From assembly GCA_000023725.1 (NCBI GenBank), contig CP001673.1, positions 2,428,342 to 2,492,341 of the forward strand: a stretch of 64,000 nucleotides of DNA, read 5' to 3'. Shown in pieces: positions 37,605-42,562 of this stretch; positions within the stretch are counted from its first letter, which is position 1, and every line of letters begins with the position of its first letter. The stretch is from Flavobacteriaceae bacterium 3519-10. GTDB lineage: Bacteria; Bacteroidota; Bacteroidia; Flavobacteriales; Weeksellaceae. The translations under genes were made by a program, and so were the position numbers. The notes beneath the pieces were generated by a model. It searched no databases, had not been told where the DNA came from, and saw only the letters and a list, made by a program, of their open reading frames with translations.

Positions 37605-38126
37605 TTATTTGATTTTAACTGTAAACTTCCCTGTACTCACGCCGGAGGCCATGTTACTTTTTCCCACAATCAGCCAGATCTCTCCTTTGTCCGGGGTTTT
37701 ATAGCTGATTTCTCTGCTGAAGGGCCCATCCAACGTACCATCCGGAAGGCGAATCTGGTTAAAGCGTATATTCATCTGAGGATTTTCAGGTACAATTTCA
37801 CCCGAAATACTTTCTCCGCTGAAATTTTCGATCTTGATTATATACGACTGTTGTTTATCGGTAAATTCTTCATTTAAAGTAAGCGGAAGCATTTCTGCAT
37901 TGATGGTCGTGGTAGTTTGTCCGTTTTCGGCCGATCGGGAGTTTCCTGTAATAGATGCGGAGCTTTCTGGATCGGAATTTATCTTCCCGGAATCGCTGAG
38001 GGAATCTTCAGACAAATTTGCATCAGAACTGATGATTGAATCAGAACCTGCAGCGTTTTCACACACGTTCTGCTTTTTGCTGCATGAAATAATAAACACC
38101 GCGAACACGACAATTAGTTTCTTCAC
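37605..38126 (-). CDS. Putative lipoprotein, overlapping the DUF4173 gene
   Basis: 173 residues. Lipobox FIISC, Cys at 15. A Ser/Asp-rich, low-complexity linker follows (SSDANLSEDSLSDSGKIN). The C-terminal half is a beta domain (QSYIIKIENFSGESISGEIV, MNIRFNQIRLPDGTLDGPF, GEIWLIVGKSNMASG) similar in plan to periplasmic lysozyme-inhibitor or pre-peptidase-like domains, but this is only a shape impression. The start overlaps the DUF4173 stop by four bases (ATGA-type overlap), so it is coupled to it. Confidence 0.65.
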   Translation of the reverse strand: MKKLIVVFAVFIISCSKKQNVCENAAGSDSIISSDANLSEDSLSDSGKINSDPESSASITGNSRSAENGQTTTTINAEMLPLTLNEEFTDKQQSYIIKIENFSGESISGEIVPENPQMNIRFNQIRLPDGTLDGPFSREISYKTPDKGEIWLIVGKSNMASGVSTGKFTVKIK

Positions 38127-39493
38127 TTTCTTAGATTTTGATAAAACAGGGTTCCTGATAAGAAGGTTTTAGATTTCTCTGATTCAATTTGATTTAAAAT
38201 TTGCTGCCGGAGCTTAAGGTTGCGCTCTTTTCCGGCATAATCGAGCAATTGTAATTCGTTATAATTAACCGATTTATGGTGATACTGAAGGTCGAAATTG
38301 GCGCGCTTTAGATTCTGTGAAGTAATAAAGCCGCCCCAGTTAAAATAGCTGCAAACCAAAACCGTTCCGTAAAAATACCACACGATATGGTTGATCAGGA
38401 AAGCATTGGTTTTCTGACGCTGGATTTTAATAAAGGTAAGCAACAAACCCGCAAACGCTAAGATCAGGAATGCAAAAACACCAAGCCGTTTGTAGGTAAA
38501 ACCCAAATTTATAAAGTATTCTGCGTTTTTGGTAAACGCAGTAACGACTAAAAGTACATTCAGAAAGATCCAGATTTTTGCCATAATTTTCAGGTAACGT
38601 GCCTTTGGATCGAAGTTGAAATATCCTTTAAAATAAAACATGATCACCAAAACAGCCATAATAATAGATAAGATTACGGCGTTCACGCGGTCGTGAGTTT
38701 CGGCAGATAACTGTGCAGACGTTTTAGCGCTTTCGAAGAACTGTTCGTATATAAATGTGGTGAGAAATATGATGAGCAACAGGTTGAGTGCAGCAAATGA
38801 AATGAATCCGCTTTTGCGCTCGGCTCCGAAATCGAGGAATGAAAAAGTCGGTTTAGGGCTGTGCGAACCACTAAAATCATTTTTGAGCTTATGGTTTACG
38901 GTGACCAGGGAATTGTCGATGCGGAAATTCCAGAAGTTGAAAGCCAGAAAAAATCCGACGCAGCTCAGTGCAAAGAATTCCCACAAATTGAAATCAAGTC
39001 TGTAGAGATCAAAAATACTGGAAAAATGAGCGCTTCCCAATGAGTAAACACCAAAGAAAACCACTACGAATCCTGCCGGAATCAGCACCGAAGCAACAAG
39101 TTTTTTGAGGCTTTCCGATATATTTGCTTTTGGAAGCCATTGATCAAACCTGAATACGCGGACCGGAAATGTGACAAAATTAAATGCAAAAACCGGAATC
39201 ACAAGAATCGATTTTAAACTACTGTTCCGCGAGTGAAATATCAGCAGAAAGCAAGACGTGAAAGTCGCTAAAAACGACACGAAATCGCCGTACCAGACAA
39301 ATGCCACACTCGACAGGATGGTGGTAACAAACAAAATTAGGAAAGTGCGGGTACGCCTTGTTTCAGGCGTATGAAAAAATGTAAGTAAAGCAGTGGCCAC
39401 GCCTAAAATACCGACGTTGATGCCGGTGTCTTCACCGTAAAAAAGCGTGATGAACAGGACGGTTGTGAGGAGGATAAGCTGATGTCTTTTCAT
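38123..39493 (-). CDS. DUF4173/DUF4153-type integral membrane protein
   Basis: 456 residues with about 10-12 transmembrane helices. The central stretch with YRLDFNLWEFFALSCVGFFL and the C-terminal YNWGGFITSQNLKRANFD-type segment (here SYFNWGGFITSQNLKRANF) are typical of the DUF4153/DUF4173 superfamily. The soluble C-terminal tail follows (YHHKSVNYNELQLLDY). Function is unknown. It is the third gene of a cluster (membrane protein, winged-helix regulator, this gene, lipoprotein) and has an ACTTTG-N5-CAAAGT palindrome 68 bases upstream. Confidence 0.78.
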   Translation of the reverse strand: MKRHQLILLTTVLFITLFYGEDTGINVGILGVATALLTFFHTPETRRTRTFLILFVTTILSSVAFVWYGDFVSFLATFTSCFLLIFHSRNSSLKSILVIPVFAFNFVTFPVRVFRFDQWLPKANISESLKKLVASVLIPAGFVVVFFGVYSLGSAHFSSIFDLYRLDFNLWEFFALSCVGFFLAFNFWNFRIDNSLVTVNHKLKNDFSGSHSPKPTFSFLDFGAERKSGFISFAALNLLLIIFLTTFIYEQFFESAKTSAQLSAETHDRVNAVILSIIMAVLVIMFYFKGYFNFDPKARYLKIMAKIWIFLNVLLVVTAFTKNAEYFINLGFTYKRLGVFAFLILAFAGLLLTFIKIQRQKTNAFLINHIVWYFYGTVLVCSYFNWGGFITSQNLKRANFDLQYHHKSVNYNELQLLDYAGKERNLKLRQQILNQIESEKSKTFLSGTLFYQNLRK

Positions 39494-39560
39494 TGGGTTG
39501 TATTTATTTTATTTTATATTTTCTGATATTGTCGCATCTAAGTGTAATTAATATCAAAGC

Positions 39561-39577
39561 ACTTTGTTTTTCAAAGT
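39561..39577. promoter_or_regulatory. Candidate operator ACTTTG-TTTTT-CAAAGT ahead of the DUF4173 gene
   Basis: A perfect 6-bp inverted repeat with a 5-base spacer, 67 bases upstream of the DUF4173 ATG and 24 bases past the winged-helix regulator stop. A near-identical site lies at 40593-40609. Confidence 0.55.
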
Positions 39578-39600
39578 AACTATTCAAAAAAAACAGCAAC

Positions 39601-39891
39601 TTACCTTCCCAGTAATTTTTCGAGTGCTGTTAAATGCTCATCGAACGCTTTTTTTCCGGACGCAGTGGCGCGATAAGATGTTCTCGGTTTTTTACCTACA
39701 AATTCCTTTTTCACTTCAATGTAATCCGATTTTTCAAGCGCTGTGCTGTGGCTCGCCAGGTTTCCGTCCGTAATCTCCAGCAGATTTTTCATCTCCGTAA
39801 AATCAACCCACTCGTTTACCATCAGAACAGACATAATGCCCAGTCTCACACGGCTTTCAAATTCTTTGTTGAGGTTACTTATATTGATCAT
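39601..39891 (-). CDS. Winged-helix transcriptional regulator (HTH_27/PadR-like)
   Basis: 96 residues, one winged helix-turn-helix domain. The helices are FESRVRLGIMSVLMVNEWV, TEMKNLLEITDGNLASHSTA (recognition helix region) and ALEKSDYIEVKKEF, and the wing is GKKPRTSYRATASGKKAF. This matches the small single-domain regulators of the HTH_27 type in Bacteroidetes. It probably controls the surrounding membrane-protein genes. The partner membrane protein gene lies 77 bases upstream on the same strand. Confidence 0.83.
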   Translation of the reverse strand: MINISNLNKEFESRVRLGIMSVLMVNEWVDFTEMKNLLEITDGNLASHSTALEKSDYIEVKKEFVGKKPRTSYRATASGKKAFDEHLTALEKLLGR

Positions 39892-39968
39892 TGCTTTTGA
39901 TATGTATGAAAGATAGCATTCAAGACTTGCTAATCATTTACTGTTTTACTGGGCTGCAGAGCTATTAT

Positions 39969-40586
39969 TTATTTATACTTTCTATGCATCACGAGACCGT
40001 ACACAATATGCAGCACGCCAAACCCGAGGGTCCAAAAAACCAGCCCCCATCCGAGGAAGAAGAACGAAACCAATCCCAGAACAATCTGGCAATAGCCCAA
40101 ATTCTGAATATCGTTAAATGTATATTTAGAGGCATTAACCAAAGCAAGCCCATAAAATATCAGCGTTGCCGGAGCGATAAAAACAAACATCCCGTGGTAA
40201 AGCAAACCGAGGCAGAACAAGCCGCCTGTAACCAGCGGAACAGCGAAATTAAACAGCAGTCTCTTAGTTGTCTGGTCCCAAATTTTCAGATTTTTTTCGC
40301 GGCTTCGTTTCGCTGTAAAGATGTAACCGGACAAAAGTGCGAGCACAAGAATTACGCCTCCAATCACCAACATTTCGCACACAAGGTCTTTACTGAACAC
40401 GTTACTGTTACCCGCAAAATAGTCGATACCTTCGCGCCGGAGCACAAAATAAATATAGACGGCACCCAAAATGGCAACCAATCCGGCGAACACGCCTGAA
40501 ATTCCGCTGAGCGAAATAAAGCGCGAGCTGCGTTCCATCATCGAACGGATGTGCGTAAGGTCTTCGTGATAATTTTTCGATTCCAT
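39969..40586 (-). CDS. Membrane protein next to the winged-helix regulator
   Basis: 205 residues from the ATG at 40586; the frame stays open to 40658, but the extra residues look non-coding and would cover the palindromic site. The N-terminus (ESKNYHEDLTHIRSMMERSS) is soluble, followed by about six membrane segments (near 26-47, 70-90, 108-126, 130-148, 157-175 and 178-196). No family was recognised, though membrane-protein/regulator pairs of this type recur in Bacteroidetes. It is the first gene of the cluster, with an ACTTTG-N5-CAAAGC site six bases ahead of its ATG. Confidence 0.72.
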   Translation of the reverse strand: MESKNYHEDLTHIRSMMERSSRFISLSGISGVFAGLVAILGAVYIYFVLRREGIDYFAGNSNVFSKDLVCEMLVIGGVILVLALLSGYIFTAKRSREKNLKIWDQTTKRLLFNFAVPLVTGGLFCLGLLYHGMFVFIAPATLIFYGLALVNASKYTFNDIQNLGYCQIVLGLVSFFFLGWGLVFWTLGFGVLHIVYGLVMHRKYK

Positions 40587-40592
40587 AATTAC

Positions 40593-40609
40593 ACTTTGAA
40601 TTACAAAGC
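40593..40609. promoter_or_regulatory. Candidate operator ACTTTG-AATTA-CAAAGC ahead of the membrane protein gene
   Basis: The same half-sites and spacing as at 39561-39577, differing only in the last base. It is six bases from the ATG of the membrane protein at 40586, where bound protein would block initiation or translation-start transcription. Confidence 0.55.
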
Positions 40610-40703
40610 TAATCATTTTCCGGCAGGTTTTACATTTTCTTTCTTTCTGTAAAAGCAATTTTTAAAATTTGCCTATATTTATCAGGCACATTTAAAAAAC
40701 TTT

Positions 40704-42305
40704 ATGGATAAAAAAGAACTGCGAAGCTCGATTTTCAGACACCTCGACGGAATTGTAACTGCGCCTGTAGTGGCAGCACTGCACAAAAAAGGCATTGTTG
40801 CAGCCCTCGAAAAGCATCAGCGCATCGAACTGAAAGACCTGCTGAAAGAGTTCCCAGCCAATGAAGGTTATCTGAATGTCGCTCTGCGTGTGCTTGCTTC
40901 ACAAGGTTTCGTTAATTATGAACTCGATAATGCACAGGATACCGTAGTGGTTCGTGCGAATGCGAAAACGCGCTATCTGCTGTGGGCTGCGCACCTGTAT
41001 GAAAATGTAATTCCCTATTTGAAAGAGTCTGTAGGTTTTGAGTTTCAAAATCTGGAACCGGCAGCGTTCAACAATCTCATAGCCCTGTTCGATGAATTTA
41101 AGAAGAGTTTCGGACTTCAGGAATCTACAGATGCTGAAGAACTTAAGGTCCAAAATCAAATTTTAAAACATATTGAAGGTTGCCTTGTAGGCCCGATCAT
41201 CGTACATCTCGGTATGAGTGGAATGTTTCATAAATATTTTATGGAAACCTCTTTTCAGGCAGTAGAATTCCATAAAGATCCCGAAAACTTCGAAAAAATT
41301 CTTGATTTCCTGACCGATTTAGGCTGGTTCACCCGCAATAATAAGAATTTTAAGTTCACCGAAAACGGTTTGTACTTCGCGAGGCGTGCGGCATCTTACG
41401 GCGTAACAGTTTCTTACCTGCCTACACTGAACCGTATGGAAGACCTGCTCTTTGGCAACGCCACAAAACTGCGCGACATCAGCGAGAAGGAAGACGAGAT
41501 ACACGTCAACCGGAAAATGAACGTTTGGGGAAGCGGCGGCGCCCACTCTACTTATTTTAAGGTGGTGACCGATTTTATCATCGCCATATTCAATCAGCCG
41601 ATCCATCTGCAGCCGAAAGGCATTCTGGATATGGGTTGCGGCAACGGCGCTTTCATCCAGCATATTTTCGAAACGATAGAACGGCATACTTTACGCGGAA
41701 AGATGCTTGAAGATTACCCACTCTTCCTCGTAGGCGCCGATTATAACCAGGCCGCGCTGAATGTGACGCGCGCTAACCTCATCAACAACAACATTTGGGC
41801 GAAAGTGATTTGGGGCGACATCGGCAACCCCGACCTGCTGGCTAAAGACCTGCTCGAAAATTACGATATCAATCTTGGTGATCTGGTGAACATCCGGACT
41901 TTCCTGGATCATAACAGGATCTGGAGAAATCCTTCAAATATGAATCCGGACCGGGTTTCCACTTCCACAGGTGCTTTTGCATTCCGCGGAGACAGGATTC
42001 CGAATCATTTGGTCGAAGAAAACCTTAAAGAACACCTGAGCCTGTGGCTTCCTTACATTAAAAAGAATGGTTTGCTCGTCATCGAACTCCATACCCTTTC
42101 ACCGGATCTCACGAGCCAGCATTTGGGTGAAACCGCTGCCACAGCCTACGATGCCACACACGGTTTTTCCGATCAGTATATTGTGGAGCTCGAAGTTTTT
42201 CATAAAATTTGCAAAGAAGTTGGCCTTGCTGTAGATCAGGACTTGTTTAAGAAATATCCGGCTTCGGATCTTGCAACCGTTTCGATCAATTTGCTGAGAG
42301 CGTAA
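40704..42305 (+). CDS. Large SAM-dependent methyltransferase with duplicated N-terminal module
   Basis: 533 residues. The catalytic domain has motif I GILDMGCGNGAFIQHIFETI (near 310-329), motif II VGADYNQAALNVTRANL and post-II VIWGDIGNP. Ahead of it are two repeats of about 100 residues that resemble O-methyltransferase dimerisation (winged-helix) modules: IFRHLDGIVTAPVVAALHKK (residues 10-29) and ILKHIEGCLVGPIIVHLGMS (near 153-172) align. The whole resembles the AprA-related methyltransferases of natural-product pathways, some of which act in polyketide starter units (family knowledge; inferred). No other biosynthetic genes are nearby. A GNAT gene follows after a PspC-like gene, all on the plus strand. 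Confidence 0.75.
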   Translation: MDKKELRSSIFRHLDGIVTAPVVAALHKKGIVAALEKHQRIELKDLLKEFPANEGYLNVALRVLASQGFVNYELDNAQDTVVVRANAKTRYLLWAAHLYENVIPYLKESVGFEFQNLEPAAFNNLIALFDEFKKSFGLQESTDAEELKVQNQILKHIEGCLVGPIIVHLGMSGMFHKYFMETSFQAVEFHKDPENFEKILDFLTDLGWFTRNNKNFKFTENGLYFARRAASYGVTVSYLPTLNRMEDLLFGNATKLRDISEKEDEIHVNRKMNVWGSGGAHSTYFKVVTDFIIAIFNQPIHLQPKGILDMGCGNGAFIQHIFETIERHTLRGKMLEDYPLFLVGADYNQAALNVTRANLINNNIWAKVIWGDIGNPDLLAKDLLENYDINLGDLVNIRTFLDHNRIWRNPSNMNPDRVSTSTGAFAFRGDRIPNHLVEENLKEHLSLWLPYIKKNGLLVIELHTLSPDLTSQHLGETAATAYDATHGFSDQYIVELEVFHKICKEVGLAVDQDLFKKYPASDLATVSINLLRA

Positions 42306-42340: not shown

Positions 42341-42562
42341 ATGTTCAAAAACTTAAGAGATAAAATGGAAACACAATGGTTTGGCGTCCTCACAAGGATG
42401 GGCGCAAAACTTGGCATCCCTGTCTCTAAACTCCGCGTTTTCTTCATCTATTCCGCCTTTGCTACGGCTGGCGTTTTTTTTCTTTTCTACCTCGCACTGG
42501 CTTTTATGCTATGGGTGAAAGATATCTTTATCACGCGTAGGCCTAGCGTGTTCGACCTTTAA
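42341..42562 (+). CDS. Small PspC-like membrane protein
   Basis: 73 residues. The N-terminal half is basic and soluble (FKNLRDKMETQWFGVLTRMG), and the second half contains one or two hydrophobic segments (FFIYSAFATAGVFFLFYLAL). The motif GIPVSKLRVFFIYSAF is typical of short PspC-domain proteins (LGxxxxxVRxxFxx). PspC family members sit in the membrane and sense envelope stress, but a 73-residue stand-alone form has no assigned role. It follows the methyltransferase by 35 bases and may be co-transcribed with it. Confidence 0.72.
   Translation: MFKNLRDKMETQWFGVLTRMGAKLGIPVSKLRVFFIYSAFATAGVFFLFYLALAFMLWVKDIFITRRPSVFDL

Follow-up and report, generated by a model that had tools for sequence, protein, structure and literature searches.

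A class-wide 22-base-pair palindromic signal as the probable operator of a winged-helix regulator whose gene adjoins that of a membrane protein in Bacteroidia

In Flavobacteriaceae bacterium 3519-10, whose genome measures 2.77 Mb and whose relatives are Kaistella and Chryseobacterium, a 64,000-nucleotide (nt) stretch of contig CP001673.1 (positions 2,428,342 to 2,492,341, hereafter the window) contains two palindromes of 17 base pairs (bp). They enclose the genes of a multi-pass membrane protein, here called MEM, and of a winged-helix protein, here called REG. Comparison with related genomes makes it very likely that both palindromes are operators of REG, which would switch the MEM-REG operon and the neighbouring operon, most likely by repression. 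The palindromes had been pointed out in an initial annotation of the window and were confirmed at their exact positions, as was the distance of six nt between the second one and the MEM start codon. The genes are arranged in the order MEM - REG - DUF4153 - lipoprotein, all of them on the minus strand, and site 1 lies 23 nt past the REG stop and 67 nt ahead of the DUF4153 start. The features are as follows (aa, amino acids).

39561-39577, minus strand: site 1, ACTTTGTTTTTCAAAGT, ACTTTG-AAAAA-CAAAGT in gene direction, predicted operator of the DUF4153 operon.
40593-40609, minus strand: site 2, ACTTTGAATTACAAAGC, GCTTTG-TAATT-CAAAGT in gene direction, predicted operator of the MEM-REG operon.
39969-40586, minus strand: MEM, open reading frame of a 205-aa multi-pass membrane protein with no credible Pfam family.
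39601-39891, minus strand: REG, 96-aa winged-helix regulator assigned to PF13601 (HTH_34) by Pfam score, proposed repressor.
38123-39493, minus strand: DUF4153 (PF13687) membrane protein, Pfam E=3e-31, first predicted target gene behind site 1.
37605-38126, minus strand: lipoprotein-like gene, overlapping the DUF4153 stop, no Pfam match.

Conservation in orthologous loci, the check suggested in the initial annotation, was found at every level from the genus through family and order to the class. A total of 103 loci were oriented and scored, comprising 40 REG loci from the genus and family, 24 MEM loci from the order, 36 from the class (most of them from different families), and three more. They were selected by protein and not by site, except for L150 and L151, which were fetched around palindromes. 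A site was scored as present at one mismatch or fewer, and shuffled sequences served as background. Site 2 was found in 99 of the 103 MEM promoters as compared to one of 5,150 shuffles (about 0.02%), and site 1 in 92 of the 103 spacers behind REG as compared to 10 of 5,253 shuffles (about 0.2%). A second, protein-selected set of 80 named genomes, whose species partly overlap those of the first set (Chryseobacterium, Kaistella, Flavobacterium, Pedobacter, Pontibacter, Maribacter, Ancylomarina, Saprospiraceae, and others), showed site 2 in 80/80 and site 1 in 76/80. Both sites are present in Flavobacterium johnsoniae (L293), and there is no site 1 behind REG in genome G013 (L024).

When the sites are aligned, the full signal is ACTTTG-nAwTn-CAAAGT-N-CTTT (the 22-mer), so the operator appears to be longer than had been proposed. 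The N-CTTT extension is always gene-proximal and occurs in 91 of the 99 site-2 copies and 91 of the 92 site-1 copies; in the window it is represented at site 1.

39556-39560, minus strand: GCTTT, the N-CTTT extension of site 1.

The arms are spaced 11 bp apart, which is one helical turn, and their core, CTTTG/CAAAG, is almost invariant across the 193 sites, with no compensatory changes in the core. Therefore, the palindrome is read as DNA. An RNA hairpin acting as an attenuator or a terminator might be expected from the position of site 1, between two genes of the same strand and behind a T tract. However, besides the invariant core, the outer pair differs in 41 copies, among which 21 break the pairing (A-C, A-A, A-G), 19 make G-T, and one is a double change. 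Moreover, sites are found ahead of genes at other loci, and they depend on the presence of REG; a hairpin in place of an operator appears extremely unlikely.

The distribution of the site follows that of the two proteins. MEM is present in 127 of the 395 genomes of the class Bacteroidia, and the 22-mer occurs in 114 of the 395, namely in 110 of the 127 with MEM and four of the 268 without it; the reversed 22-mer, used as a control, occurs in 0/395. Fisher's test gives p=2e-73 for this association, a value that is only nominal because the genomes are related. In the phylum sample outside the class, 29 genomes (families f97, f104, f111, f115, and others) contain the 22-mer as compared to two with the reversed control. 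Within the genus, REG is found in 17 of 36 genomes; the perfect palindrome has 33 copies in these 17 and four in the 19 without REG, and in most members lacking REG the site is gone. The palindrome scan of the whole genome, also suggested earlier, added a third perfect site that had been missed (G000:C1:459960), located 42 nt upstream of the gene for a 96-aa membrane protein. In other genera the homologue of this gene directly follows site 1 as the first gene of the downstream operon, so that the gene is found at two different locations with the same site ahead of it. The arrangement is repeated in three other genomes (G005, G022, and G025), and these as well as the window's genome (G000) keep both REG and the site ahead of the 96-aa gene. 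In G015, G017, and G023, REG is absent, as a profile search confirms, and the site of the 96-aa gene is decayed or absent. Two sites were also seen in G097, in which REG was not detected.

These patterns bear on the identity of the binding protein. REG was found at all 103 of the MEM loci examined, as a stand-alone winged helix-turn-helix (wHTH) gene beside its membrane partner. The sites could belong to another DNA-binding protein that is inherited together with the cluster. However, no DNA-binding protein other than REG was seen at every locus, and REG is encoded between the two sites. Of the four genomes with the 22-mer but no MEM, three (G222, G657, and G674, the latter two distantly related) have a PF13601-like regulator, and in G667 no PF13601 regulator was detected. 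In G222, REG directly follows the site and there is no MEM match; that both persist there in the absence of MEM favours REG as the binding protein, and a different binder is very unlikely.

In Bacteroidota, the -7 box has the consensus TAnnTTTG at -12 to -5 (PMC9723704), and such a box is predicted at site 2.

40604-40611, minus strand: predicted -7 box, TAGCTTTG, overlapping the left arm of site 2 (consensus TAnnTTTG).

Across the site-2 copies the left arm supplies the TTTG, with the TA at the exact -7-box position in 67 of 99 loci and a TTG 17-21 nt upstream of the TA in 80 of 99, although not in the window's copy. Therefore, the -7 box and the start point both fall within the operator, and autorepression is the likely mechanism at the MEM promoter. 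The overlap of the left arm with TAnnTTTG might also be produced if the sites had arisen by chance around the TTTG of the -7 box. However, the right arm and the NCTTT are nearly invariant although they are not promoter elements, and the reversed control as well as the comparison with shuffles (99/103 and 92/103) refute a chance origin, whose probability is negligible.

Site 1 is preceded by an element of its own.

39586-39593, minus strand: T8 tract upstream of site 1, its last T at -9 (8 nt before the palindrome), at a fixed distance and specific to site 1.

TTT occupies -11 to -9 in 91 of the 92 site-1 copies (a T6 run in 87) as compared to 13 of the 99 site-2 copies, and the T (or A/T) tract is conserved across the class. 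Its distance from the palindrome is constant while the REG stop ranges from 15 to 269 nt away. It appears, therefore, as if the tract is part of the site. A role of the tract as a terminator was considered and set aside, its spacing tracking the palindrome and not the REG stop. The fixed A/T tract, together with a TTG at the usual -33 spacing in only 3 of the 92 copies of site 1, is what might be expected of a promoter needing help, and REG might bind the sites to activate the downstream operons. However, both palindromes cover the presumed -7 box and start point, which is an unusual place for activators, and a normal promoter underlies site 2 in most loci; activation is therefore unlikely, and repression by REG is preferred.

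Several observations weigh against REG as a repressor acting at these sites. The perfect 22-mer is missing from 17 of the 127 genomes with MEM. Genome G026, without a detectable REG, keeps a perfect palindrome upstream of the 96-aa membrane gene (L063/L081/L197), possibly owing to a recent loss of REG. Site 1 has no recognisable -33 box and hence only a putative promoter. The window's own site 2 is weak: its left arm has a mismatch, the CTTT is missing, and the -33 TTG is not present at its usual distance. This copy of the MEM-promoter site is among the weakest. Finally, the structure models are of low confidence and carry little weight.

The genes behind site 1 occur in varying order and encode DUF4153, CreD (PF06123), a Coq4-like protein (PF05019), the 96-aa membrane family, a metallophosphoesterase, and small membrane proteins, with CreD as a major target candidate in many Bacteroidia. 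The gene behind site 1 in the window had been labelled DUF4173; it matches DUF4153, and the lipoprotein-like gene is probably co-transcribed with it. In G020 and G033 (L071 and L074), the gene for a 110-aa protein related to the small membrane protein has a perfect palindrome 300 nt upstream. Among 40 distant 22-mer sites, which were picked for inspection and are not a random sample, 20 precede genes of regulon families, counting the MPAB and C92 families that are also found in clusters, and a single site lies ahead of REG. Further sites are followed by genes that were named by eye as capsule-export (Wza/Wzc-like), DoxX-like, exosortase-like, and radical SAM genes. The Wza/Wzc-like polysaccharide export genes have the 22-mer 26-61 nt upstream at L216, L217, L236, L238, and L239, from several species of one family. 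An MPAB-type oxygenase-like gene lies inside the cluster at L073 (G029) and behind a palindrome at L137 (PF09995) and L203; it probably also belongs to the regulon and was relocated together with its site. Palindromes were seen within the coding sequences of atpA, gltX, and a membrane protein as well; they were taken as chance occurrences, the atpA copies having no NCTTT in either reading. Overall, control by REG of its own operon and of the DUF4153-lipoprotein pair, as suggested in the initial annotation, appears supported at the sequence level by the conservation, by the site following its regulator, and by relocated genes that keep the site; the predicted regulon is wider than the two transcripts first proposed.

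The assignment of the protein between the palindromes as a winged-helix regulator agrees with its match to PF13601 (103.3 bits against a gathering cut-off of 27, covering positions 1-80 of the 80 in the profile). REG falls below the cut-off for PadR (PF03551; 21.1 bits against 27), although its proposed mode of action is that of a PadR regulator, and a search of its genome at E<=1e-3 returned REG itself and no second REG-like protein. It matches PDB 1UB9 (PH1061 of P. horikoshii) in sequence (E=3e-7), and 1UB9 is also the best fold match (E=5.5e-4) of a low-confidence, single-sequence structure model (mean predicted local distance difference test score, pLDDT, 62.6), which resembles PH1061 and PadR-family regulators. 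In MEM, the stretch from the N-terminus to the first membrane span is among the best-conserved parts of the protein and includes the conserved segment HEDLxHIRxMMERSSRFISLSGLSG, which would fit an interaction surface. Two other genes of the window were noted.

40704-42305: divergent gene with AprA-type methyltransferase domains (PF23525, PF23589, PF23526).
42341-42562: small membrane protein, PspC-like by eye.

The pairing of a stand-alone PadR-like winged-helix regulator with a membrane protein encoded beside it is shared with the HAAS-PadR-like wHTH systems, which have been proposed as an alternative to two-component systems and in which the cytoplasmic helical N-terminus of the membrane protein is thought to relay an envelope signal (PMC11237479). 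Unlike these dyads, MEM has no Pfam match to HAAS/DUF1700 and REG belongs to PF13601, with PadR only below the cut-off; DUF4153 is absent from the main text of that paper. A search of open-licence papers on DUF4153, PF13601, CreD with Bacteroidetes or Flavobacterium, and their combination yielded no account of this operator or regulon, and for PF13601 proteins it yielded neither an operator nor a target or partner.

The CreBC/CreD regulon of Enterobacteria is under two-component control by CreBC. CreD behind site 1 recalls this regulon; however, the control proposed here relies on an inverted repeat and a winged-helix protein of the one-component type, and no creBC is encoded in the cluster itself, although no search aimed at creBC was made.

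The most likely mechanism can be described as follows. A REG dimer would bind ACTTTG-nAwTn-CAAAGT and, at the MEM-REG promoter, would block RNA polymerase by occupying the left arm that holds the TTTG of the -7 box, leading to autorepression. The second operator, behind REG, would silence the next operon, which encodes DUF4153 here and, in other genomes, CreD and/or DUF4153, Coq4-like proteins, and small membrane proteins; loose operator copies would act likewise on members of these families at other loci. REG would thus repress its own operon, one major target operon, and several minor ones. We infer that a membrane or envelope signal, with MEM as the sensor or anti-repressor, may release the repression. 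More tentatively, and with somewhat less than even confidence, MEM-REG may be a membrane-linked one-component pair that corresponds, in Bacteroidota, to the Cre/PSP envelope-stress responses, a pair in which MEM senses the state of the membrane or envelope and frees REG from the class-wide 22-bp operator, derepressing creD/DUF4153 and the shared membrane genes.

Apart from those for polysaccharide use, Bacteroidota have few known transcription-factor regulons. Here, a regulator, its predicted operator, and its predicted targets are readable across one class from sequence alone, and the 22-mer is specific enough for the regulon to be called in any genome. The main predicted targets, CreD and DUF4153, are membrane proteins of unclear role, which the proposed regulon would place under the control of REG.
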